Shown here in pieces: positions 46,379-63,520 of a stretch of 64,000 nt of DNA. Position numbers and translations under genes: made by a program. This stretch comes from Pagrus major (Eukaryota; Chordata; Actinopteri; Spariformes; Sparidae), in the NCBI RefSeq assembly GCF_040436345.1, contig NC_133235.1:23398660-23462659 (forward strand), read 5' to 3'. The notes under the pieces are model-generated. The model had not been told where the DNA came from. It made no database searches and worked only from the letters and a program-made list of their open reading frames with translations. How positions within the stretch are numbered: position 1 is the stretch's first letter; each line of letters begins with the position of its first letter.

Positions 46379-46668
46379 AAAAACGACCAAACAAAAAAAA
46401 CCTACTGGCAACATTCAAGATCATGATACAAAACTTTTGAAGCAGAGCAGCGCCACCTGCTGGAAACCTCACAGACCTGCACTTGGACATTATCAGTCTT
46501 TTATCAAACTTTCATGGGACTAAAAGCTGGTTTTGTTTCTCATGTTTTCTGGTCAGTAGCTGCCACATAATTCAGATTAATGATGAGTCTGCTCAAAAAC
46601 CATCAAATCATCATATATATAAATCATCATATCATCATACATATATGATATGTTTTTTGTGCTCTGCA

Positions 46669-47657
46669 GGGCCTGCCGAAAAGTGACTGCACCCTGTAAC
46701 TCTGGATTGGGAGGGGTTACATTCTCTGTCTTTTCAGCATTAATAGTAGAGGAAACCAGGTGCATGTACAGTGAATTTGGTCAATATCACTCCTTGCAAT
46801 CCAGAGTTACAGGGTGCAGTCACTTTTCGGCAGGGCTTGCCGAAAAGTGACTGCACCCTGTAACTCTGGATTGGGAGGGGTTACATTCTCTGTATTTTCA
46901 GCATTAATAGTTGAGGAAACCAGGTGCATGTACAGTGAATTTGGTCAATATCACTCCTTGCAATAAGGACTTACAGGGTGCAGTCACTTTCCGGCAGGCC
47001 CTGCCGAAAAGTGACTGCACCCTGTAACTCTGGATTGGGAGGGGTGACATTCTCTGTCTTTTCAGCATTAATAGTAGAGGAAACCAGGTGCATGTACAGG
47101 GAATTTGGTCAATATCACTCCTTGCAATAAGGACTTACAGGGTGCAGTCACTTTTCGGCAGGGCCTGCCGAAAAGTGACTGCACCCTGTAACTCTGGATT
47201 GGGAGGGGTTACATTCTCTGTCTTTTCAGCATTAATAGTAGAGGAAACCAGGTGCATGTACAGTGAATTTGGTCAATATCACTCCTTGCAATAAGGACTT
47301 ACAGGGTGCAGTCACTTTTCGGCAGGGCCTGCCGAAAAGTGACTGCACCCTGTAACTCTGGATTGGGAGGGGTTACATTCTCTGTCTTTTCAGCATTAAT
47401 AGTAGAGGAAACCAGGTGCATGTACAGTGAATTTGGTCAATATCACTCCTTGCAATAAGGACTTACAGGGTGCAGTCACTTTTCGGCAGGGCCTGCCGAA
47501 AAGTGACTGCACCCTGTAACTCTGGATTGGGAGGGGTTACATTCTCTGTCTTTTCAGCATTAATAGTAGAGGAAACCAGGTGCATGTACAGTGAATTTGG
47601 TCAATATCACTCCTTGCAATAAGGACTTACAGGGTGCAGTCACTTTTCGGCAGGCCC
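46669..47657. repeat. Tandem array of six 164-bp MITE-derived units
   Basis: CCTGCCG (CTTGCCG in unit 2) recurs at 46672, 46836, 47000, 47164, 47328 and 47492, exactly 164 bp apart; the last unit ends at 47655. Each unit begins CCTGCCGAAAAGTGACTGCA and ends with the inverse, ACTTTTCGGCAGG. Unit 1 has perfect 38-bp inverted ends; units 2-6 carry a changed right arm (AATAAGGACTTACAGGG). Junctions are therefore near-perfect palindromes with a one-base centre. The units are otherwise nearly identical and have no transposase. Confidence 0.95.
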
Positions 47658-48091
47658 TCTGATAGCACTTACTAATTTCTCAGTATGTGTTATATGATTG
47701 CTATCTAATGTGACGTGGAAACACTCCTGCATTCTTTTCTGCATTGATTTCCTAATCCTCGTTATAAAATCACTGAAACAGGGATATTGAATTATGACTT
47801 TATTTATAGATCAAAGCGGTGTAAAATCACATTGCAACAACGATAACAACAACAACAACAATAAAAGTGGCAAGGTAAAGCATCTACCCTCATCAATTGT
47901 TGACAACTAGCCTACATTATGGAAACATCAGGTTGCTTTTTTTTATCTGCGCCGTTCTTGTTCCGTAGCCTCTTCACTTGGGCTACAGGACTGCACAGTA
48001 AAAAAAACCTTTCTCTCGGTGCTGCGTCTGCCAGCTGACCCGTAGTAGACCTACGCCCACTTCCTCTGAACTGATGCGCGTTCCCGTCGGG
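47658..48091. other. Spacer between the MITE array and the first THAP gene
   Basis: No gene is recognised; contains a short (CAA)n run at about 47848-47862. The right part becomes GC-richer towards the promoter of the THAP gene. Confidence 0.45.
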
Positions 48092-48111: not shown

Positions 48112-48117
48112 ACACCT

Positions 48118-48172
48118 GGATACGCCTGATTCCAAACCAAGCGAACCCCAACCCGAAGCCCCGCCCATTCCG
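48118..48172 (+). promoter_or_regulatory. Conserved promoter block of THAP gene A
   Basis: GGATACGCCT at 48118 and CCGCCCATTCCG at 48161 are 43 nt apart, the same as in genes B and C. The block includes a CCCCGCCC GC-box. It is 153 nt from the end of the block to the ATG. Confidence 0.65.
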
Positions 48173-48324
48173 CCGCCAACTCTGCCAACCATTGCAACTA
48201 ACAAATATAGCTAGCCGCTAGCTCGTGTGTATTTGGGACACTGGGGTAGTAAACACTGATACAATTAGAGGTAGTACGTGTTGATTTTTAACACTTTTGA
48301 AACTGGACCAAACTTAAATCCAGG

Positions 48325-48855
48325 ATGTGCTCGGTCGTCGGGTGTCACTCCGGACGTCGCAGCGTTCAGCCTCAGCGGTTCAGGCTACCGGAGGATCCGG
48401 AGAGGAGGCTGGAGTGGGTTCAGTTTCTCGCTACAGTCAACAAACAGCGCTTTAAAGAGTCGTCCTGGACTGACATCGCAATCTGTATCGACCACTTTAA
48501 AGATGACTGCTTTGAAAACGTGACACCGGGACACTCGGGCATGATCGGCAGGGTCCAGCTGAAGCCCGGTGCTGTCCCGTCACTGAGTCTCCAGTCTGGG
48601 TCGGACCAGCCCGAGCCTCGTCCGAAGAGCCCAGCATGTGTGGTGAGTCTGCTCTGACAGCTGGAAACAAACACACTAACTGCATTTGTTGTGTAATAAT
48701 GAAGTTTTGTTGCCTCTTCAGTCTACACAACGCATCTCCCGCGCTACGTTTATGCTACATCTCACATTAGATAGCATTTTCTGTAGGGTTTGTTTGTTTT
48801 ATACACCAAGCCGACTAAGTGGGCGGGGTTAATTCTCACTATGAATACTATGATT

Positions 48856-48916
<61 letters not shown>

Positions 48917-50693
48917 CTTTATTAATCTTCAAGGGGAAATTATGTTACCATAGCAGCTGGTACATTCAAGTACAAATACAGTACAAATATAGAAACAATA
49001 AGAGCAATAAAGTACAATATACAAAAGAACAATAAAGTACTGTATACAATATACAAAAAACAATAAAGTACTGTATACAATATACAAAAAACAATAAAGT
49101 ACTATATACTATAAAATGCTTAGGTAGTTAAAAAAAAATACTGAGGTAAATAAAATAAAATGGTATTGAGGAGTAAAGTGGAACATAAGGTGCAAGAGAA
49201 TAAGGTGCAGTTTTAACAGCACCCCAGGACACCACAGCGAAGAAGATGGTGCTCGCAACAACAGACTGATAAAACATCTGGAGCATCCGGTTGCAGACAT
49301 TAAGGACCTGAGCCTCCTCAGGAAGTAAAGCGGGCTCAGGCCCTTTTTGTAGACTGCCTCCGTGTTTGAAGACCACTCTAGTTTATTTTCCAGCACCACA
49401 CCCAGATATTTGTATGAGTCCACAATGTCAACATCTGTCCCACCGATGCAGACAGGAGAGGGCGGGGGCTTGTTCCTCCTGAAGTCCACCACCATCTCTT
49501 TCGTCTTCGCCACGTTCAGCTGCAGGTGGTTCTCCCCACACCACTTAACAAAATTGCCGACCAGGTCCCTGTACTCACCCTCCCTCCCGCCCTCTACACG
49601 CCCCACAATGGCCGTGTCATTAGAGAATTTCTTCAGATGACACGACTCAGTGCGGTACTTAAAGTCTGCAGTGTAAGTGGTGAAGTGGAAGGGAGACAGC
49701 ACAGTTCCCTGGGGGGCGCCGATGTTGCCGATCAGACGGTCAGACAAACAGTTCTGTAATCTCACAAACTGTGGTCTGCCCGTCAGATAGTCATCGACCC
49801 ATGTGACGAGGGGAGAATCCACCTGCATGTTCTCCAGTTTGGCCTTCAGCAGCCTGGGCTGGATGGTGTTGAAGGCGCTGGACATCATATCTATAGGCCT
49901 TGGTTGCCCTGGAGACAGAGACGGTGTTATCAGGACAGCTCCCCCTCACCACTCGTCCTGGGAGACTGGGGCATTTTACCGTTGGCCTTCACACTCAGCA
50001 ACAGAAATTTATTGTCCTCTCCTTTCACCCAAAATGTTCTCAATATGCACATCCACATTTTTTTCATAAACAAACTAACCAACAGTGCTCATCCACATCT
50101 TGTGTTCTTGGTAAGTATACACTTTGTAAAGTCAGTGCACACATAAGGGTTTTATACATTTTCTGATGAGATCAAAAGTTAGTTAAACATTGTCCGAGCA
50201 CAGTTTTTAATGTATCGTATGTTGCCATTCGTTGACTAAAATCTTTTTGTTGTTTTGTGTAGGAGCCAGTGGAAGCCGCAGAAGTTGCTAGCAGACTTCA
50301 GACATGTGACGGGCCAACTTCCTCTTCTGAAGAGTCAAGACTGACTCTCTTAGGTAAAAAAAAAAATCGTATGTTTTATCACAAATGACGTAAAATGAAA
50401 AATCTTCTCTAATACACTTTGAACTTAATTTTGCAGCTGCCCAAGGAAGCGCAGCCCGGCGCGGCGTCTCAACTGTTACAGATGCTGTTATATCTGTATA
50501 TGATCAGATGCATCCAAAAAATGTGAATGCTGATTTGACCAGAGAAAAGTAAGTTTTCTTTAAGTCTACGCTTAATTTTTTCACTTTTACTGCAGGTTGG
50601 TGTTTTAATGTTTCTATTAACTTAGAATAGAATAGAATAGATAGAATAGAATAGATATACTTTATTGATCCCAAGCTGGGAAATTAAGGAATT

Positions 50694-50729
<36 letters not shown>

Positions 50730-52668
50730 GAGCTGAACTTCTACAGAAGAAAGGGAAGTATGTCGTGAATGAAAAACGCCTCCTCCAGTTGTTTAGCTGC
50801 AAATGCCCGTTATGTGGTTCTGAGATCAAGGTGGAGAAGTCCACCTATGGGGTGCTCATCATCTTGAACCAACAGTGCCTCAAGTGTGAGTACAGAAACC
50901 AGTGGAAAAGCCAGGTCAATGCCAGTGTCCCAACAGCTGATGATCCACCCTTGACAGGAGGCACAGATGTAACTGCACTGATCGGACAGGTAGGACTTGA
51001 GTAGTCAGGCAAACTGCGACATAGAGTGAGAATTTTGCATCTAAAAAAAGAGAATTTTCTTTAAATTTGGCACATATGACCACTTGAACTGAAGGATGAA
51101 CTAACCTTTGGTGATCAAAGGTCAAGGTCACCGTGACTTCACAAAACACTTTTATGGCTCTTAACTCAAGAATTCATACGCTTATTATAACAAAACATCA
51201 AAGGCCGTCATGAAATAATATTTAAATCAGTCTGCTGTACAAACTCAAACTCTTTTTAATTTTACCCACATCCATTCCTGTCATTGTACTACAGGCAGCG
51301 CCAACAGATGACACTAACAGCAGCGCCACAGGGATCCCTGAGATCGTTGCTGTCGTTAACGAGGAGAGTGATCCCATGGCTGACTCGGAGATATCAGGCG
51401 AAGAAGGCAACGTCGAGTCAGATGAGGACTGGAAGCCACAGAGGCATTTTTTGCGGGTTGGCCTGCCTCAACAGGAAGCAGAGGACAAATCTGACAAAGA
51501 AGTAGAAGAAAATGATGATCTTCCTCCACCTGTCCCCATTAACAGCCAGCTCTGCACAGATTGTGGGGTGTTTTTCAATAAACTGAGGCCTCACACGTGT
51601 GAGCACAAAATCAAACCCTATTCTTGCAATATTTGTGGTAAGAGATGTGTTAGTGAGGTCGCGCTAAATGCCCACAGCAGAATCCATGATGAAAACTATG
51701 AGTTTCGGTGCAAATACTGCAACGTTTCATTCAAAACAAAGGTGGACAAATTCAATCACGAGCAGATCCACTCAACTGAAGGAAAACCCTACAAATGTCC
51801 CGACTGCTCTGAGACATTTCCCACAAATAAGGAACGCAGAATCCACCTGGAGGATCACAGAGGCCCCCGCCAGACAAAATGTCACATCTGTGCGATTGAA
51901 TTCTTCACGCCGCTTTATCTTCAGAGACACTTACCCGTGCACACCGGAGAGAGGCCGTTTAAATGTTCTGTGTGCCAACGTGGCTTCAACCAGCCAGGTC
52001 ACCTGAAGTCCCACATGCGTCTGCACACAGGGGAGAGGCCTTACAAGTGTCAGCATTGTGACAAGTGCTTCAATCACAACGTGAGCTTGAAGAGCCACGT
52101 CCAGCGTTACCACGCGTCCAACTCTGGAGGTGAACAGAATAAAGAAAAGATAAAAGAAGTGAACGTGGAAATAGAAGAAGACGACACTGGTGAAGCTGAG
52201 GGGAACTGGAACAAGAGAGGTGAAGACTCTGAGTTAGAAGACGAAGACACAGAGGAAGAGTTGCCAAAAAGTAGTAAGAGGAGCACAGGTAGACCCATAG
52301 GAAGGCCAAAGAGGAATGAATCAGACAACTTGGTTCTGAAAGTGCAAGTGGAACGCCTGTGTTTAAAACGTAAGACTGGAAAACAACAGGCGAAGAAGTT
52401 AAAAGATAAAACACAGCACGTCGATGAAGAAAGTGAGGATGAGCAGAGTGACAACGACACATTTGCCGCTTCAGCAGAGGAGGAAGAGGAGAGGAGTGAG
52501 ACCGAGACATCGAGCACGAGCAGATCAAGAAGAAGGGCAAGAGATTCTGAAAGTGACTCTGATTTTGAGCCCGAAGATAAAAAGAAAAAGAGTTACAGCA
52601 GCCAGAAAAGTGGCAAAAGTTCAGGGAAGCGCAGGGGAAGACCAAGGAAAAAACTAGTGGTGAAATGA
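48325..52668 (+). CDS. THAP / zinc-ribbon / C2H2 / AT-hook protein, gene A
   Basis: Not recognised as a named gene. Proposed exons: 48325-48642, 50263-50353, 50437-50548, 50731-50989 and 51295-52668, with GT/AG borders and matching phases, giving 717 residues. Exon 1 is a full THAP domain (MCSVVGC, SSWTDIAIC-x2-HF, GAVPSL). Exon 4 has LLQLFSCKCPLCGS and CLKCEYRNQWKSQ, a CPxC/CxxC ribbon like that in Kolobok-type THAP transposases. The last exon has an acidic lead, a C-x2-C-x9-H-x-C-x-H module (from residue 347), six C2H2 fingers with TGE[RK]P-type linkers only around the last three, then acidic and basic tracts with STGRPIGRPKR and GKRRGRPRKK, which resemble AT-hooks. Likely a nuclear DNA-binding protein; no transposase catalytic domain is seen. 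Intron 1 holds a LINE and an expanded TAGA repeat. Confidence 0.88.
48854..48916. repeat. (GATA)n microsatellite at a LINE 3' end
   Basis: About 15 GATA units directly precede GCTTTATTAATCTTCAAGGG. This fits the short-repeat tail of a minus-strand CR1/L2/Rex1-like LINE. Confidence 0.9.
48917..49893 (-). mobile_element. 5'-truncated CR1/L2/Rex1-like LINE in THAP gene A intron 1
   Basis: The minus strand encodes the C-terminal half of a reverse transcriptase: an SSAFNTIQP start, DYLTGRPQFVRL, GAPQGTVLSPF, a KFSNDTAIVG motif where an active enzyme would have DD, and KTKEMVVDFRR. A frameshift near 49300-49330 moves the frame before the conserved MLQMFYQSVV end. With the altered catalytic motif and truncation it cannot be active. 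Its 3' tail is the GATA repeat at lower coordinates. Confidence 0.85.
50625..50690 (-). repeat. LINE 3'-tail fragment in THAP gene A intron 3
   Basis: GAATAGAATAGATA repeats followed by CTTTATTGATCCCAAGCTGG and GGAAATT match the 3' end style of the larger LINE in intron 1 (CTTTATTAATCTTCAAGGGG, GAAATT). Confidence 0.7.
50697..50730 (+). promoter_or_regulatory. About 30-nt T tract at the acceptor of THAP gene A exon 4
   Basis: A near-uninterrupted T run ends in ATAG before the zinc-ribbon exon; the paralogous acceptor in gene B has about 14 T and gene C has an ordinary tract. Confidence 0.8.
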
Positions 52669-53811
52669 TTCTTGAAATACACGGAAGTAAAGAATTCATT
52701 TGGTTCAAACAGTTGTAAAGATAAAGGAGTCAAAAGTGGTTCATATGGATCTGGACTGTGTTTCTAGAACGTTACATAACATCTCAACATAACAAATCAT
52801 GTCAAGAGTCAAGATTGAATTTCAGTGACTTTTACTTTGATTTCAAAATGTTTTTAATCTTGTTACCTAACGTGTATACTTGTGAATAAAAGTGTATGAA
52901 ACAGGGCTGATGTTGAGTGCCTGCGTTAGCTTCTGATGTCCGATATTTAATTCTACTTAATTCTATCGTATGTACTTGTGATTGACCTGTAAACTGGTTC
53001 ACTTTCTGCTGAGAGGAGAGCTGGGAACGTCCACTTTTGGAGGAGCAAAATGACTGGCAATGAATGGCATAACTCATTGACTCTGAATACACATAAATTA
53101 AAGCTTGTGACTTTTTAGCTTCTTAACTCTGACCCATACGGAAAATAACACCAGTGACAATGTTCATGAAAAATGCATTGTACAAAATGGCTGCTAAAAG
53201 GCATCAATCCACATGTTGTCATCAATCATGTAAAACTCACTAAAATATGCAACTCAGTCCATTTTTATTCTACTTTTTTACAATTCCCTACTTATAAAGT
53301 AGGTCACACCAGTGACGTCAGTTAAAAGCTTCATATGAAATCTGGAGATAAATGTGAAACTTTCCCATAACTGAAAAGAGACAGTGGACTCAACCGTGTC
53401 ATTTCTTTACAGTTCTTCAGAAAATAGGTCAAAGGAAGTAAAGTGATGCCATCAGTGTGATTTTTATTCCAAAATAATAGACTTTTGTCACATGGTAACA
53501 CCAGTGACGTGACTCCAGGGGACGATTACTGTCATTATATATTTTATAATATTTATTTGGATTTTTTAAATGTAATTTCTATGATATATTTGATGCATAC
53601 TTTATTGCATTTTAAATAGTATTAAAACATGGTTTTGAGCTCAAAATACGGGGACAAGTAGTTCTATGGTGCTATCGTTTTATTATGAAATATGAAAATA
53701 ATTTAATCCTCAAGTGTTTTCCAGGTGTAACTTTTCTGTGAAGGCTAGGGGCAGAAAAATGGACGTTTCCACGGAGTGACCCTTTAAGCAATCTCACGCA
53801 TTGACCCTCAG
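52669..53811. other. Gene A 3' UTR and A-B spacer
   Basis: AATAAA at 52885-52890 is the likely poly(A) signal of gene A. The rest is AT-rich without genes. A motif ACACCAGTGAC recurs at about 53149, 53307 and 53501. A single MITE-like end (GGAGTGACCCTTTAA) lies at about 53774-53788. Confidence 0.5.
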
Positions 53812-53814
53812 CCG

Positions 53815-53869
53815 GGATACGCCTCACATCAAACCACGCGAACCCCGCCACCAAACCCCGCCCATTCCG
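53815..53869 (+). promoter_or_regulatory. Conserved promoter block of THAP gene B
   Basis: GGATACGCCT at 53815 and CCGCCCATTCCG at 53858, again 43 nt apart, with AAACCACGCGAACCCC between them. Confidence 0.65.
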
Positions 53870-54035
53870 TCGCTAACTTTGCCCGCCAGCGCTGCTGCAG
53901 CGACAGCTAGCTGTTAGCTTAGCTCATGTGCTGTTTGTTGTGTTGGGATGTGAGCGGACACGGGGGGTCTCTCCTCCAGCCCTCGTACACGGTAACTACG
54001 ACACCGTCCGCACCGGACCGAGCTTAAAATCCAGG

Positions 54036-54368
54036 ATGTGCTCCGTCGTCGGATGCGATTCGTGGCGTCGCAGTGCGCAGCGGTACAAGTTACCGGAGGA
54101 TCCAGAGAGCAGACTGGAGTGGGTTCAGTTCCTGTTCGAAGTCAATGGACAGCGACTGAAGGAGTCGTCCTGGACTGATATCACCATCTGCTCTGAACAC
54201 TTCACTCACGACTGCTTTGATAACATCATTTCGTTATCTGGCACGTTCCAGCTGACGTCCAGTGCCGTCCCATCTCTGTGTATCAAATCAGAGCCAGAGG
54301 AGCACGAGCTACCTGAGCACCCCGAGTCATACCAGGTGAGCTGACAACGTGAGGGGATGTTGCTCTGA

Positions 54369-54409
<41 letters not shown>

Positions 54410-57400
54410 TTAAGTTACTCATCCCTGCCTCTTCAGCATATTAAAACATATATTCCCCCCCCCAGAATCTCTCCCATTCAGTGATTTAAGAAAAATCAAA
54501 TAAATATACAATATATAATCTCAAATACACGACTGGAACAGAATGATTTATGTTGCATACACTTGTTAATTGTTTGTTATTGATGAGCAATGCATAATAC
54601 ATTTGTGTTACTGCTATACAAGAGCTACAGATTACTTTTGACAACATATTTTGTTTGTTATGACACAAACCCCTCGGTGGATGTTCATTTATACTTTGTC
54701 TTGCACACTGTTGTTATTGACAAAAGTGCTTTAAAAGGCGATTAATTCTTTTTAATTTAATACCTAATTGAAATGATTCACTCGACAATAGGCTTTAAAG
54801 ATCACTTTCTAGAAAAAGGTTTAAACTACACACCACTTATAAGTCATGTTTTCAGGTTTTCAAGTTGGATCTGGGGCACATTGCACAATGCTGCAGATTA
54901 TATAATATAATAATAATAATAACTTCTGCATGAAGTATGAATAGGTTGTAAACAGCATTTGATTATTCTGTGGAAACAAATGTATTTCTCCTGCTTTTAT
55001 ATGATCTAAAATGAATCTTCTAGGGGTTTTTTGTAATTGCATTCAACTGAAATAAAGTTTGATGTTACAGTGTGGATCATCTTGTATAAAGCGGTAGACA
55101 GCCTAATGATGTGTTTTTATCTTTGAAGGCGAGTGACGCTGTCGTTTGTAAAGAGGAAAGTGACGGCAGCGTGAGTGAGGGCGTCCCTGAGAGCTATGGA
55201 CGCGTGAGCAAAGAATGGGACGGGGAAGAAAACCCTGTGGATTATTTGCCGTTCCACAGTTTGGATTACGCAGCAAAGGTGAGGATCAAGACTGCTGGAC
55301 GACCAACTCCACTGATAACCGTGAACAAAAATGTTACACCTGCTCAGCAGAAAGTCTCCCAGCTGACAAAGGTCTGATATGAGAGATATTCTTGGCTAAT
55401 GGGCGGTCTAAACACTTGTATTGTTGACAAGGAGAAATGTTTTAGAGGGCATGGGGATATAAAGCTGACAAGTATAAAACAACATCATACCGTGGGTTAG
55501 TTTTCCTCCTGTCCTCCCCAGTATTTTGAGTCGCCAACAATATATAGAAACACTTCACATCTAAATATTTTCATTGACTCAGACTATCGCGCATGTGCAC
55601 ATGTGCAATGTCAATGGTGAGACGATATATTGTGCAGCCCTTCTGTCATGGAAAACTCAGCCTAACACGACTTTTAGTGTATTGAATCTAGCTTTTGTTT
55701 GTACAGCTCGTTGTTGGTCTATGCTGCTACAACTCCAGCTTTTATTTCTTGTGTTGCTGTGTAGGAGGAGCCTGTGGAAACATCAGACGCTGCTTCTCAG
55801 TATGATCAGCATGTAACATACGATACTCCATCTTCAGATTCTGAAGAGTCAGAACCAGCTTCACCGGGTAAGAAACTTGATAATTTTATGAGTTAGTAAG
55901 AATGGAGTGGGTGTTCTTGCAAATGTTTTCTCTTTCTGTGAATATTAAAGTTTAAATTTAATTTGCAGCTGCCCAAGAAAGCCCGGCGCCAAGTGATGCT
56001 TCAGATGATTTCATGTCTGATTATCGTCAGGTGCTACAAAAAGTTGCGAACCTTGATATAATCAGGGAAAAGTAAGTGATCTTTTGTAGCAGTTGTACTT
56101 TCGTTACAGAAGGCAGGTTTTTTTAAACCTGTATCTCGTTTTTTTTTTTTTTCAGAGCTGCACTTCTACAAATGAAAGGAAAGTATGTTGTGAATGAAAA
56201 CCGCCTCCTCCAGTTGTTCAGCTGCAAATGCCCGTCATGTGGTTCTCAGATGAAGGTGGAGAAGTTCACCTATGGGCTGCTCATCGTCTTGAACCAGCAG
56301 TGCCTCCAGTGTGAGTACAGAAACCAGTGGAAAAGCCAGGTCAATGCCAGTGTCCCAACACCTGAAGACCAACACCTGACAGGAGGCACAGATGTAACTC
56401 CGCTGATCAGACAGGTAGGGCGTGAATAGTAACAGATGTACTGCAACATATCCACCGCTATCTTATTAGTTTGTGCATCTAAGAAAGTTTTTTAAACTAA
56501 AATTATACCAATCTACACTGTCCAATATTAAGACACTTCCATGATTATACATGTCTTATATTATTTATATTTTTTACTCTTTGGTGCTGTTAATGTTTGT
56601 GCAGGCTCTTGTTAAATGAACAGGTATAGCTGCAACGATTAGTCGATTAATTGTTTAGTTGACAGAGAAATGATCGACTATTTAAATAATCGATTCATTG
56701 TTTAAGTCATTTATGGAGCAAAAATAGTGGGAAAAAAAGCTACAATTTCTCAGCTTCTTTGAGATTTTGCTGCTTCTCTTTGTTATCTTTGGATACAAGA
56801 CATTTGGTGACACAGCTTGACTCTTGATAGTTGCAATTTTTTATTTATTTATTTTTATTTACATATTTATTTAGCAAATTAATTGATAATGGTCAAAGGT
56901 CAATTAGTATAAAAGCACCCTAATGCTTCTTTGCTTGCAGCTCTCTGTTTGGCTGTAACATTCATCCTGACATACACTTTTTGAAATTTTTACACATTAC
57001 CTATCCCCTTTTTTGTCATCATATCTTTCACAGATAGAATCAACAGATGAAAAGCGCCGCACTACCACGGGTGTCTCTGAGATGGTTGCTGTTATCGATG
57101 AGGAGAGCGATCCCATGGATGAGGTATCGGGCGATGAAGACGACACGGATTCAGACGAAGATTGGGATCCAACGAATTTGCCGGTTGACAAGCTTCTTAA
57201 TGATGAATCTAATGAGGAGAGCACAGATGATGATGAAGATGACGACGACGATGATGATGATGATGATGATCTAGTTGCAGGCAAACACACTGAGCTCTGC
57301 ACAGATTGCGGAAAGTTTTTCCATAAACAGAAGCGTCACACGTGTGAGCACAAAGTTAAACCCTATTCTTGCAATATTTGTGGGAAGAGATGTGTAACTG

Positions 57401-58299
57401 AGGCCGCTCTGAGTTCTCACAGCAGAGTCCATGATGAAAACTATGAGCATCGCTGCAAATACTGCCATGGTCCATTCAAAACAAAGGTGGACAAAATCAC
57501 TCATGAACAGACTCACCAAACCGAAGGAAAGCCCTACAAATGTCCCGACTGTTCAGAGACATTTGCGACAAATAAGGAGCGCAGAGTCCACATGGAGGTT
57601 CACGGAGGTCCGAAACAGTTAAAATGTCACATCTGTGGGTTACAATTTTACCGTAAGCGTGCTCTCGCAAGACACTTACTTGTGCACACAGGTGAGAGGG
57701 CGTTTAAATGTTCAGTGTGCCAGCGTGACTTTAACCAGCCAAGCCACCTGAAGTCCCACATGCGTCTGCACACAGGGGAGAGGCCGTACAAGTGTCAGCA
57801 TTGTGACAAATGCTTCAATCACAACGTGAGCTTGAAGAGCCATGTCCAGCGTTACCACACATCCAATTCTGACAACGTAGAAGATAAAGAAGAGACGGGG
57901 CAGAAGGGAACAGATAGGCAAAAACGTAAAAGGAGGAGCACAGGGAGACCAAAAGGAAGACCGAAGAGAAATGCAGCTGGCAACTTGGTTTCAGAGGAAA
58001 CGCAAGGACAGTGTTTAAACACTAAGACTGTCAAATTAAAAGCACGGAAGTTAAAGAAAACACGTTGCAGCGATGAAGAGAGTGAGGACGAGCCGCCCGA
58101 AAGCGACATATCCTTTGACTCGGCAGAGGAGGAAGAGGAGGGGAGGAAGAAAGTGACATCGAGCACAAGTAGATCGAGAGGAAGGGCAAAACATTCTGAC
58201 AGCGATTTTGACCAAGAAGACTTGAAGAAAAAGAGGCACAGCGGCTCAGGGAAATGTGTGGGACGACCAAGAAAGAATAAAGCTGTAGAAGACACATAG
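54036..58299 (+). CDS. THAP / zinc-ribbon / C2H2 / AT-hook protein, gene B
   Basis: A tandem paralogue of gene A, not recognised as a named gene. Proposed exons: 54036-54335, 55129-55278, 55765-55867, 55969-56071, 56156-56414 and 57034-58299, giving 726 residues. The exon at 55129-55278 (50 residues, starting ASDAVVCKEESDG) has no counterpart that I can find in A or C. The order is THAP (MCSVVGCDSWRRSAQRYKLP), ribbon (LLQLFSCKCPSCGS, CLQCEYRNQWKSQ), acidic region with 11 consecutive aspartates, C-x2-C-x9-H-x-C-x-H module, six C2H2 fingers, STGRPKGRPKR and VGRPRKNK. The start was chosen by alignment with A and C at AAATCCAGGATG; an in-frame upstream ATG at 53928 would add 36 residues without similarity to the paralogues. 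AATAAA at 58400 ends the transcript. Confidence 0.88.
54370..54408. repeat. (CA)n microsatellite in gene B intron 1
   Basis: About 38 nt of CA beginning 34 nt after the exon 1 donor. Confidence 0.95.
56628..56905. repeat. hAT-like MITE in the last intron of gene B
   Basis: Begins GCTGCAACGATTAGTCGATT and contains ACAATTTCTCAGCTTCTTTG and GACATTTGGTGACACAGC; ends AATTGATAATGG. A common fish repeat, also in gene C intron 1 and amotl2. Confidence 0.75.
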
Positions 58300-58399
58300 A
58301 AATACATTGAGCTGCACATGCAACACATTAGATGGAAGCAAGGGACTTGAATCCTGTTGACTGATGTGTATAGCATTGGCTCAGACTGGGCAAAATAAC

Positions 58400-58405
58400 A
58401 ATAAA
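58400..58405 (+). terminator. Gene B poly(A) signal
   Basis: AATAAA 101 nt after the stop codon of gene B. Confidence 0.7.
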
Positions 58406-59065
58406 CTGTTTTTCCCTGGTTTCTTCTTCTTCTGTGTTTTAAATGATTAATAATTCTATAATCTACTACAGTGTATGTGAACATTAGATGTGTTAATTGC
58501 TGAAAAGAGTCTCATCATGTACATTTCTTACAAGAGTTGGTTTTTATTTTGACAATTGTGAGGCAACAAAGCTGAATTTTAAAATGATTTTGTAGTAACT
58601 TGATTATGGAGGATTGAACCTGCCAAAATAAAAATAATAATAAATGGCTCATTAAATTAATTAATATGTCATTAATTCCCCGGTCAGTGCTTACACCCAA
58701 GGACCTTATATTAAAACATGGATACAGTGTCGTGGACGTTCTGATCTTTACCATGATCTTCCAGTTTAGCGCCCGGCTAACTTGAATAGATATAAAATGA
58801 TTTATCTTGCGGCTCTTCTAGACTTTACAAGTTTTATTGGACTGAATGGCTCAAATTATGTTAATAATTTATCCACCATTTTAAAGCCACTTCTTTCACA
58901 ATGTAAGCTCACAGGAAAAAGTCTTTTCGCATCACATAATTACACGCTATGGCCATTATGACAGTTGGCTTCAAAGCCTGGCGCTCTTCCCGGTGGCTTA
59001 ACAAACTGAAGCTGCTGTTAGCCGTTTAGCTTGGTTAGCCATTCGTATAGCCATTCGGAGCTTGA
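58406..59065. other. B-C spacer, nothing recognised
   Basis: AT-rich, no exon, RNA gene or clear repeat until the inverted-repeat element that starts at 59066. Confidence 0.45.
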
Positions 59066-59821
59066 TACGGAAGCCTTAAAGAGCCATGCATTCATACATT
59101 TTATTTCCTCCGTTTTCCTGTGATAACAAGTTAATTTCATTCGTTTTCTCGAGATCTCGAGTTATTATCTCGAAATAACAACTGCCGTTTTCCCGAGATA
59201 ACGGGATAATTTTCTCGAGATAACGAGATAATGAAACTTTGTTTTCCCGAGATAACAATATAATTAATTCGAGATCTTGAGAAAACAAAACGATAGTGTA
59301 GTATATTAAATCATTGCAGGAAACATCATTCAGTGTAGCAATGTCAGAGGAGCAGGAGCATATCGATCACCGCGTCACATATCTTTTCAATCAAGGCCTG
59401 ACACAGGCTGAAATAGCATTATGCCTTGCTATTACAGATAATATACACATTAGTGTGCATAATCTAAAAAGATGGCTAGCAAGGCTTCAGCTATATCGGC
59501 GGCATAATCTAAGTGAGCCTGATGTCGTCGTTAACTACATAGCTGACCAGCTACGAGGTCCCAGGCGTCTCCATAATCTCAGGCCTATCATATCACAGTC
59601 ATTATCTCGAGATCTCGAATTAATTATATCGTTATCTCGGAAAAACAAAGTTTCGTTATCTCGAGATCTCGAGAAGATTATCCTGTTATCTCGGGAAAAC
59701 GGCAGTTGTTATTTCGAGATAATAATTCGAGATCTCGAGAAAACAAATGAAATTAACTCGTTATCACGGGACAACAGAGGAAATAAAATGTATGAATGCA
59801 TGGCCCTTTAGGGCTTCCGTA
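59066..59821. mobile_element. Foldback DNA transposon with about 225-bp inverted ends
   Basis: The ends TACGGAAGCC (59066) and GGCTTCCGTA (to 59821) are inverted, and complementarity extends inward for roughly 225 bp with few mismatches. The arms are packed with CTCGAGATCTCGAG and CCCGAGATAAC sub-repeats, themselves palindromic. The flanks GCTTGA (left) and GCTTGG (right) could be a 6-bp target duplication with one change. A short coding relic lies in the central single-copy part. Confidence 0.85.
59314..59590 (+). pseudogene. N-terminal helix-turn-helix relic of a transposase
   Basis: Between the inverted arms is a frame with YLFNQGLTQAEIALCLAI, VHNLKRWLARLQLYRR and a following DVVVNYIADQL. 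This resembles the N-terminal DNA-binding region of integrase-type (IS3EU/Ginger-like) proteins found in fish, where GF-x(4)-I-x(2)-LL is followed by TLKRWL and YRRK. No integrase core follows; the frame runs on into the right arm. Family assignment is from memory and uncertain. Confidence 0.5.
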
Positions 59822-60048
59822 GCTTGGAGCACCAGAGGTATGTTTGTGTTTATGCTGCTAGCACAGGAGCTTTGGACTGGGGCTAAGTGGTTAGCAACAA
59901 CATCACAAAACACAGACATCATAACTTCAAAATTGTTATTTCTTCATTATCTGTTCATGATTTAAGTTCATTTTTTTATGTTTTCAAGTGGAATTCTTAC
60001 ATAATGCACCTTTAAAGACAGTCTTTTCATATATTGAACGTACCGCCG

Positions 60049-60103
60049 GGATACGCCTGATATAAAACCAGGTGCACCCGGCCGTAGAGCTCCGCCCATT
60101 CCG
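60049..60103 (+). promoter_or_regulatory. Conserved promoter block of THAP gene C
   Basis: GGATACGCCT at 60049 and CCGCCCATTCCG at 60092, 43 nt apart as in A and B. A GCTAGCTGTTAGCTCG stretch follows, shared with gene B's promoter region. A MITE end (ATGCACCTTTAA) lies just upstream at about 60004-60015. Confidence 0.65.
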
Positions 60104-60251
60104 TTACCATCACAGCTACTAGCAAAAGCAGCTAGCTGTTAGCTCGCCACTGTTGATGGCGCTGGAAACCAGTGGACCCCGAAGCTTTCACTACATTAAA
60201 TATTAAACTTCAACGATATCGGGAACTGGAGAGACACGACTTAAATCCAGG

Positions 60252-63200
60252 ATGTGCTCCGTCGTCGGATGTGATTCGTGGCGTCGCAGTGCGCAGCGGT
60301 TCAAGTTACCGGAGGATCCAGAGAGCAGACTGGAGTGGGTTCAGTTCCTGTTCGAAGTCAATGGACAGCGACTGAAGGAGTCGTCCTGGACTGATATCAC
60401 TATTTGCACTGAGCACTTTACTGACGACTGCTTTATAAAGCTGACTGCGGCGACTGGCGCGGCCCGGCTAAAGTTTGACGCTGTCCCGTCACTGTGCATC
60501 AAGTCAGAGCCAGAGGAACCAGAGGAACCTCTGGAGAGCCCACATGTGGTGAGTCTGCCCGACAGCTGTGGTGAAGCTTTGTGGTCATTCAGCGTTTCAC
60601 ACAAGCAGCACACTGTGAACACATGAACCCATAAGTGAAGTGATAATAAAGGAATGATAAAATGTCTGTCAATTGGAGGAGTTTTTGCATTTGAGTCAGT
60701 CAATAATAGCACAGATGAACAAGAGTGTAAGTATGGTGTTTAAATACTTTATTCCATGTGATTGTATCACCATGTCAGAGAGGGTCTCCTCTCTGTGCAC
60801 TCAAACAATCAAACAAACTATAATCACATCTTCCTTTTATACAACATAAACTACAGACATATTCAACTGGTGGCCCGTGACCCAATTGTGGCCCTTTAAC
60901 AACCTCATTCTGGCCCTTTAAACCAAACTGACAACCTACTTCTAAGATGATAAAGGTACTTTTTAACTTCCTGTACTGTACTGTACTACTTATACCTCCT
61001 GTAGATATAAAATTTAAATAAAACAAATAAAAAAAGTCAGAAAAAAGTGCATTGTTTTTATGCAACCAAAGTCAGACATAGATGTAAATTATGTAAAAGT
61101 CCTGCACCTTAGTTGTTAACTCTTTTAAAAAATCTGGTAGTCGAATAGGCCTGATGTAGCATATGCTCAGTAAATCATATGCTAGCCCACATCTTGTGTT
61201 TCCATGTGCAGGCCAGGTTGGATGCTGCGACTAATGATTGTTTTCATCGTCAGTTATTCTGTAGATTGTTTCCTCGATTGATCAATTAGTTGTATCATCT
61301 ATAAAATGTCAGAAAATTGTGAAAAATGTCCGTCAGTTTCTCCCAAAGCCCCAAGATGATCCACAACCCAAAGTCGTTCAGTTTAATGTCGCAGAGGATA
61401 AAGAAACCAGGAAATATTCACATTTAAGAAGCTGGTTTTGAAAAAAATTACTCAAACCAATTCAGCTATTGTCTGAATAGTTGGCAATTATTTTAATCGC
61501 TGATGACTAATAATTGCAGCTCTAATCGAAATGTCAACCAAACACAATTTTAGTGAATTGTATGTAGCTTTTGTTTAACTACAAGCTCGTACTTTTGTCC
61601 TTTTGTGCAGGAGCTTGATCAAACTGTGGATGGTGCTCATCAGTGGGATGCCAGTCCTGAATCAAGTGCAGTGTCGCATTCACCGGATGCTTCAAATGCA
61701 TCTGGTTTTGACCAGATGCAGCGAAAAATCACGCTTGATTTGAACAAGGAAAGGTGAGTTACACTTTCTCGACTCCTTTGCTCTCTTTCTGTTCAGCATT
61801 AAGTTGACTTTTAAAATCTTCTTTTTCGTTTATTCTCAGAGACGCGCTTCTGCAGATGAAAGGAAAGGTTGCTGTGAACGAAAGCTGCCTCTTCCAGTTG
61901 TTTCGCCGCAAGTGCCCGTCGTGCAGCTTCAAACTTCAGATGGAGAAGGTCACCTGTGGGCTGCTCATCATCCTGAACCTACGGTGCCTCAAGTGTGACT
62001 ACAGCTTCCAGTGGAAAAGCCAAGTCAATGCCATTGTCCCAGAAGCTGAAGATCAACAGGTAGGACTTTAATAGTAAGGCATGCTGTACTTCTAAATCTA
62101 CTCTATGCTAATAATCATGCTATTATTATTGTATTTTTCACAGGAAATGCCAACAGATGATGACCCCAGTGGCACAGTTTTCTCTGAGATTGTTACTTTT
62201 AGTGATGAAGACAGTGATCCCGAGGATCACCCAGAGGAAGGCGAGGAAGCTGATGACGGAAAGGTGAGCTCAGACGGCGAGTGGTGTCCAACTGAGGATA
62301 TTCTGCTGGCTGAAGAGCTCACAAAGGCGGCTGAAGAGTACAGCGAAGATGAAAGCGAAGGAGAGGAAGAAGAAGAGTTGGATTCCGCGGGAGGCCTCAA
62401 AATCAACGAGCTCTGCACAGAGTGTGGCCGTTTTTTCAACATCCTGAAGCCTCACCAGTGTGAGCACAAAATAAAGCCCTTTTCCTGCAATATATGCGGC
62501 AAAAGATGCGTCACCCAAATGTCTCTGCATGCTCATAGCAAAATCCACGATGAAACCTATGAGCATCCTTGCAAATACTGCCACATTACCTTCAAAACGA
62601 GGGTGGACAAATGTAAACACGAGCAGACGCACCAAGGCTGCAAAGATCCGTATCAATGCCCGGACTGTCCAAAGACATTTGCAACCCGTAAACAGCGCAG
62701 CATCCACCTGGCAGATCACAGAGCCCCGAAGGAGTTCAAATGCGGAGTTTGCGAGATTGAATTTAAAGATGTGCATCATCTTCGGAGACACTCTGTGGTG
62801 CACACGGGATTGAAACCGTACAAGTGCTCAGTGTGCGAGCGTCGCTTCAACCAGTCAAGCCATCTCAAATCCCACATGCGTCTGCACACAGGGGAGAGGC
62901 CGTACAAGTGTCCGCATTGTGACTATAGATTCAATCACAACGTCAGCCTGAAGAGTCACGTCCAGCGTTACCACTCTGGAGGTGCACGGAAGAAAGAAAA
63001 GACAAAGGAAAGTGCGAGCGACACTGGTGATGCTGAGGACGATGGGAATATGAAAGGCACAGATTCTGAGTTTGACAATGTAGAAGAAGAACCAGACACA
63101 GAAGAGGAGGTGCAGACGGAGGGGACAGATGAGGCGAAAAGTAAAAAGAGGAGCACAGGTAGACCCATAGGAAGACCGAAGAGGAATGCAGCAGGAAAAT

Positions 63201-63520
63201 TGGTTCTGGCAGGCAAAAAAACAGGCCGGAGTTCAAACTCCAAGACCGGAAAATCAAAGGCACAGAAGAAGAGAAAAGGTTCCAGCGAGGAGGCAAGCGA
63301 GGACGAGCAATCAGACAGCGACGTTTCCTTTGACTCAGCAGAAGAGGAAGAAGAAGAAGAGATGGAGACGGTGAAGAAGAGCACAGGGAGAACAAAAGGA
63401 AGAGCAAAAAATGACAGTGACTCTGATTTTGACCCAGGAGAAGAAACAAAGAAAAAGAAGTACAGCAGCCAGAGCGCAGGGAAACGTCGAGGCAGACCAA
63501 AGAAGAATCCGGAGGTCTGA
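60252..63520 (+). CDS. THAP / zinc-ribbon / C2H2 / AT-hook protein, gene C
   Basis: Third tandem paralogue. Proposed exons: 60252-60548, 61611-61753, 61840-62059 and 62144-63520, giving 678 residues. The THAP exon is almost identical to that of gene B up to TDITIC and then diverges sharply. The second exon equals exons A2 plus A3 fused: the intron is missing and the A3-type start is shortened. The ribbon reads FQLFRRKCPSCS and CLKCDYSFQWKSQ, so CPxC and CxxC are kept although the surroundings have diverged. The last exon has an acidic lead, LCTECG-x(8)-PHQCEH, six C2H2 fingers, and AT-hook-like STGRPIGRPKR, GRTKGRAK and GKRRGRPKK. It is the most divergent of the three outside the THAP exon. 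No clear poly(A) signal is seen before the MITE at 63597. Confidence 0.88.
61222..61530. repeat. hAT-like MITE in gene C intron 1
   Basis: Begins ATGCTGCGACTAATGATTG and ends AATTGCAGCTCTAATCG, with ATAAAATGTCAGAAAATTG and CCCAAAGCCCCAAGATGA inside, a widespread fish repeat. Confidence 0.8.

Follow-up and report, generated by a model that had tools for sequence, protein, structure and literature searches.

Has the DNA-binding head of a transposase been joined to a C2H2 zinc-finger exon and then retained as a gene? This question is raised by a locus of the fish Pagrus major, which lies in a stretch of 64,000 nucleotides (hereafter the window; RefSeq assembly GCF_040436345.1, NC_133235.1, positions 23,398,660 to 23,462,659 of the forward strand) that is part of contig C21 in the genome searched here (785.9 Mb, 25 contigs). 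The locus contains three intact genes arranged head-to-tail in tandem, named A (48325-52668), B (54036-58299) and C (60252-63520), each of which combines a THAP domain, a CPxC/CxxC ribbon, acidic stretches, six C2H2 fingers and a tail with GRP motifs. The observation of this gene trio, made earlier in a sequence-only reading of the window, is confirmed, and the limits given there (48325..63520) coincide with the start codon of A and the end of the stop codon of C. We consider it probable that A, B and C are host-transposase fusion genes that were fused before their tandem duplication and encode a DNA-binding regulator.

Three tandem genes encode a THAP domain, a ribbon and a C2H2 array

Splice models were built by comparing the three repeats and demanding GT-AG introns, and yielded open frames throughout, with GT-AG borders at all 11 introns and predicted proteins of 717 (A), 676 (B) and 678 (C) amino acids. 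In every spliced model the order is THAP domain, linker, ribbon and then a single exon holding the acidic stretch, the six C2H2 fingers and the basic GRP tail. The introns of A and B fall in phases 0,1,2,0; those of C, in which a single linker exon replaces two, fall in phases 0,2,0. The junction between ribbon and C2H2 exons is in phase 0, and the frame is open across it in all three models.

The THAP domain (Pfam PF05485) was recognized in each gene, with scores of 51.7 (A), 40.4 (B) and 41.4 (C) bits against a cut-off of 23.9, and searches of sequences in the PDB matched it to human THAP2 (E 2.1e-5) and THAP1 (E 0.003); designed armadillo proteins ranked between these two and were rejected as spurious. 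All three ribbon exons carry the pattern CPxC...CxxC...W.SQ (CPSCS in gene C); a Pfam search with them returned nothing over the cut-off, and their sole PDB match was a weak one to PF0385 (E 0.0016). Each last exon encodes six regular C2H2 fingers preceded by a degenerate C..C...H.C element, and 242 distinct PDB sequences matched this exon, the best being ZNF568, CTCF and similar proteins. Acidic stretches occur in all three gene models. The tails of A, B and C contain a GRPxGRP site and, close to the C-terminus, a second GRP site (RRGRP in A and C, VGRP in B). The Pfam AT_hook model reached 8.3 bits in C (cut-off 17.4) and gave no match in A or B, so that, of the up to four kinds of binding unit proposed earlier, THAP, ribbon and C2H2 array hold, whereas the AT-hooks are weak candidates at the level of a motif recognized by eye.

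The three arrays differ unevenly at the contact positions, numbered by the usual C2H2 convention. Finger 6 is identical in A, B and C, and in finger 5 only A departs, by one change; fingers 2 and 3 vary at one or two positions, and finger 1 and most of all finger 4 differ. As the earlier reading had held, no catalytic domain was detected: five transposase queries (three from the D1/D2 region and two from the H2CH region) matched nothing in the window at E 0.01, and the latter two likewise returned no H2CH finger after DxxH there at this threshold.

Kolobok-type elements of the genome share the THAP-ribbon head

We further searched the genome with the THAP exon of C and with the ribbon and C2H2 exons of B, scoring the best 150 of 230, all 27 of 27 and the best 99 of 2208 candidates, respectively. 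Among these best-scored candidates, close copies of all three exons were found only in the trio. The THAP exon matched the window copies at 100, 81 and 64% identity, followed by 65 others at no more than 41% (best E 7e-6). Beyond its three window copies, the C2H2 exon matched other C2H2 genes, of which the best by E-value were 30-34% identical, with short stretches elsewhere reaching 51%. The ribbon exon matched the three window copies and 21 others (E 1.6e-8 to 0.04), 11 of which fall in clusters on the contigs C1 and C4, the other 10 lying elsewhere. Among the C2H2 matches listed, inspection by eye found none less than 1 Mb from these 21 ribbon matches. In viral contigs, 50 stretches fitted a ribbon pattern, none of which was confirmed.

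Twelve loci of 10 kb each, taking in 13 of the 21 outside matches, were then opened, including 8 of the 10 matches outside the clusters (L053-L058, L063, L064). These eight elements represent about five families, L053/L054 and L056/L058/L064 being copies of each other. A THAP frame lies upstream of the ribbon in all eight, and first-D, second-D and H2CH region matches lie downstream in all eight, the queries having been derived from L053, L055 and L056, themselves members of this set. Under strict patterns, the first-D motif was present in 4/8, DRH...DxxH in 6/8 and H2CH in 6/8. Element ends were read for five (L053, L054, L056, L058, L064): L056 and L058, which belong to one family as copies of each other, carry TTAA on both sides along with matching inverted repeats that start with AG, and L064, L053 and L054 have TTAA on the left, with a right end left unsettled by the alignment. 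TTAA sites, RR termini, C/DxxH, THAP and H2CH are given as Kolobok traits in the available portions of PMC9587614 and PMC6004289. Since Pfam recognized neither the ribbon nor seven of the eight element pieces above its cut-off (the eighth being THAP), the assignment to Kolobok is based on motifs, TTAA and inverted repeats.

The exon boundaries agree as well. A consensus splice-site scan found an acceptor of phase 2 lying 25-26 codons ahead of the first ribbon Cys in 7/8 elements (all except L054) and a phase-0 donor 32 codons past the Trp in 7/8 (all except L053). The ribbon exons of the window are likewise entered in phase 2, 24 codons ahead of this Cys, and left in phase 0, 28 codons past the Trp in A and B and 15 in C. 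The THAP exon of L056, read by eye in this one element, ends in phase 0. From the shared order and ribbon-exon phases, it follows that the window genes and the Kolobok transposases have the ribbon exon in common, and that the C2H2 exon occupies the place where the catalytic exons would begin. By these comparisons, derivation of the N-terminal head from a Kolobok-type transposase is well supported. The earlier proposal of a Kolobok-like transposase N-terminus followed by a C2H2 exon is thus borne out; the relatives found are Kolobok elements rather than members of the P-element type also named there.

Purifying selection and probable gene conversion within the trio

We compared the pairs A/B, A/C and B/C by the NG86 method with 1000 bootstraps and estimated the ratio of nonsynonymous to synonymous divergence (dN/dS) for each part of the genes. 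The ratios were 0.27, 0.21 and 0.24 for the C2H2 array, 0.19, 0.21 and 0.43 for THAP, and 0.29, 0.40 and 0.29 for the tail (A/B, A/C and B/C, respectively), and dN equalled or exceeded dS in at most 1% of bootstraps in all nine comparisons. Those for the ribbon were 0.48, 0.46 and 0.39. Purifying selection is therefore clear in THAP, fingers and tail and weaker in the ribbon.

Synonymous divergence itself differed by domain. Between A and B, dS was 1.09 in THAP versus 0.13 in the ribbon, and between B and C it was 0.28 in THAP versus 0.93 in the C2H2 array, with non-overlapping 95% ranges. In addition, 50714-51023 and 56139-56450 (A/B, ribbon) are 88% identical, and 54027-54314 and 60243-60530 (B/C, THAP exon) are 86% identical. 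These several-fold differences in dS, together with the stretches of high identity, point to gene conversion between the copies, in the ribbon of A and B and in the THAP exon of B and C. Such conversion would also limit the precision of individual dN/dS values.

Proposed origin of the gene trio

From the domains, open splice models, shared exon with its phases, lack of DDE matches and selection computed here, we infer a single transcript, an order of events, a nuclear role and targets as follows. The part kept from a Kolobok-superfamily transposase would have been its DNA-binding head (THAP exon, linker and zinc-ribbon exon), its catalytic exons having been lost or bypassed, and the phase-0 donor of the ribbon exon would have been spliced to the exon that encodes the acidic region, the C2H2 fingers and the basic tail. 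Tandem duplication of the fused gene would have followed, with purifying selection retaining the copies and gene conversion acting locally between them. Since all three copies have the fusion, it should be older than the tandem amplification, as had been proposed before. The proteins would most likely be nuclear sequence-specific DNA binders, whose sites may be chosen by THAP and by the last C2H2 fingers with their nearly constant contact positions; the acidic region may recruit partners and the basic tail may add affinity. Transcription might thus be regulated by the A, B and C proteins, possibly including repression of related Kolobok elements.

Several results weigh against this scenario. 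A third catalytic residue was not located in the opened elements, Pfam names no DDE domain in seven pieces taken from them, and the consensus scan offered rival splice sites in 5/8 (L054, L056, L057, L058, L064). The exon structures of A, B and C are themselves predictions based on paralogue comparison. Window ribbons share 32-43% identity with transposon ribbons and sit on a long branch of the ribbon tree, a tree that decides little because it has 81 kept columns, an arbitrary root and 9 of 18 inner branches open. Regarding the source of the C2H2 exon, the best other matches, at 30-34% identity, have no distinctive part in common with it. Selection is also uneven: the ribbon ratio of A/B does not fall significantly below 1 (15% of bootstraps), the linker ratios are 0.82 (A/B, not significantly below 1), 0.43 (A/C) and 0.39 (B/C), and those of the acidic region are 0.69 (A/B), 0.42 (A/C) and 0.70 (B/C), with A/B and B/C not significantly below 1. 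The YN00 method, which gave estimates for 9 of 18 comparisons only, returned 1.46 for the acidic region of A/B and 0.74 for the tail of A/C. Three of the best other C2H2 genes were considered as the exon source and rejected, the common part being ordinary finger sequence only.

The alternative that survives best, which we nevertheless regard as unlikely, is that the head came from an already domesticated THAP-ribbon gene without a DDE region, like those that may be present in the clusters on C1 and C4. Four cluster loci were opened (L059-L062, all on C1; 10 kb each, covering 5 of the 11 cluster matches); all four have ribbon frames without a DDE-region match, and two (L059 and L062) have THAP frames, as this origin would have it. 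The nearest ribbons, however, whether judged by E-value or by path length on the tree of ribbons, are those of elements on C5 and C13. Origin of the head from a Kolobok-type transposase, as the sequence-only reading had proposed, is well supported, and its direct capture from a transposon is likely rather than proved.

A split of each repeat into two adjacent genes, a short one for THAP and ribbon and another for the C2H2 fingers, would be in keeping with the fact that the C2H2 exon could in principle start on its own. It is made very improbable by the same order, donor-acceptor pair and phase-0 junction in all three copies and by junction introns of 305, 619 and 84 bases in A, B and C, across which the spliced frame stays open throughout. 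Decaying transposon remnants with chance open frames, as might be imagined in a genome that does contain Kolobok-type elements, can practically be dismissed in view of three open frames of 676-717 amino acids, purifying selection in THAP, fingers and tail, and close copies confined, among the best-scored candidates, to the trio. We therefore retain the fusion of a Kolobok-type head with a C2H2 exon as the best explanation.

Features of the locus and its surroundings

The predicted exons are listed in Table 1 together with a stretch that is conserved ahead of the start codon in each gene and within which the alignment shows an invariant CCGCCCATTCCG; this stretch is perhaps a shared promoter or 5' untranslated region. 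Just upstream of gene A, about six tandem repeats of 164 bp with 97% matches occupy 46666-47658. Intron 1 of gene A contains an antisense frame of 278 codons (49109-49945, minus strand), which we take to resemble part of a LINE reverse transcriptase, and frames upstream of the trio are presumably AMOTL2-like and Rab6-like. Elsewhere in the genome, THAP and ribbon matches pair across contigs in the clusters at C1:22.77-22.83 Mb and C4:37.87-37.93 Mb (L035-L043, L047, L051, L059-L062), which may represent another group of Kolobok heads that were domesticated.

Table 1. Predicted exons of genes A, B and C and the conserved upstream stretch (window coordinates)
Feature	Position	Strand	Evidence
Gene A exon 1, THAP domain	48325..48642	+	Pfam 51.7 bits; GT donor, phase 0
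Gene A exon 2, linker	50263..50353	+	splice model
Gene A exon 3, linker	50437..50548	+	splice model
Gene A exon 4, CPxC/CxxC ribbon	50731..50989	+	splice model, motif, matches in genome
Gene A exon 5, acidic stretch, six C2H2 fingers, GRP tail, stop	51295..52668	+	Pfam, splice model
Gene B exon 1, THAP domain	54036..54335	+	Pfam 40.4 bits; splice model
Gene B exon 2, linker	55765..55867	+	splice model
Gene B exon 3, linker	55969..56071	+	splice model
Gene B exon 4, ribbon	56156..56414	+	splice model, motif, matches in genome
Gene B exon 5, acidic stretch, six C2H2 fingers, GRP tail, stop	57034..58299	+	Pfam, splice model
Gene C exon 1, THAP domain	60252..60548	+	Pfam 41.4 bits; splice model
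Gene C exon 2, sole linker exon	61611..61753	+	splice model
Gene C exon 3, ribbon	61840..62059	+	splice model, motif, matches in genome
Gene C exon 4, acidic stretch, six C2H2 fingers, GRP tail, stop	62144..63520	+	Pfam, splice model
Upstream stretch common to the three genes	A 48115..48186, B 53811-53883, C 60045-60104	+	blastn between repeats, alignment

Comparison with known systems and implications

Fusions of transposases with host genes in tetrapods, with KRAB partners, were reportedly described by Cosby et al. in 2021. The Kolobok transposases of this genome resemble the window genes in the order of their THAP and ribbon exons, THAP coming first, and in the phases of the ribbon exon, whereas the window genes have no match to the DDE, DxxH or H2CH region and have a C2H2 exon instead. 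Host-transposase fusions by splicing are known, and as in A, B and C a transposase domain is there spliced to host exons (accessible part of PMC10719622). What distinguishes the window genes is the addition of a C2H2 array, by which each half of their proteins should bind DNA. Most domesticated Kolobok transposases of Xenopus similarly retain DNA-binding motifs, many without the DDE motif, and the DDE-less proteins may suppress transposons by competing for target sequences; in the available text of that source, a fusion with a C2H2 array is not described and the phrase 'zinc finger' is absent (PMC6004289).

Two further systems are partly comparable. The THAP-C class of a sea cucumber preprint comprises THAP genes with further zinc-finger domains, and thus, like the window genes, THAP and additional zinc fingers in one protein; it is reported from some echinoderms, Aplysia, C. 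elegans and Drosophila and said to be absent in humans, and the two examples described have zf-C3HC4 or zf-SAP30, with no ribbon or C2H2 array described in the accessible sections (PMC13228809). In the P2X7 purinoceptor, formed from a P2X4-like gene and KolX, a Kolobok-encoded part is likewise fused to a host gene, but according to the portion available it is KolX and not the transposase THAP head that is used (PMC9587614). No THAP-C2H2 fusion in fish was found in the titles and abstract openings listed from the literature searched, with subscription papers mostly outside it, and this is no proof of novelty.

Overall, the trio looks like an exon-resolved case in a vertebrate of the reuse of a transposase DNA-binding head beside a second DNA-binding array. 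A speculative extension, to which we give little credence at present, is a fish family of Kolobok-derived transcription factors with THAP-ribbon and C2H2 heads in one protein that would still target Kolobok elements or their relics, leading to silencing or to rewired gene control. Whether captured transposase heads still bind old transposon ends is a standing question on such fusions, and since this genome also contains Kolobok-type relatives, two copies of which show both of their ends, the binding of the captured head to these ends would be directly testable here.

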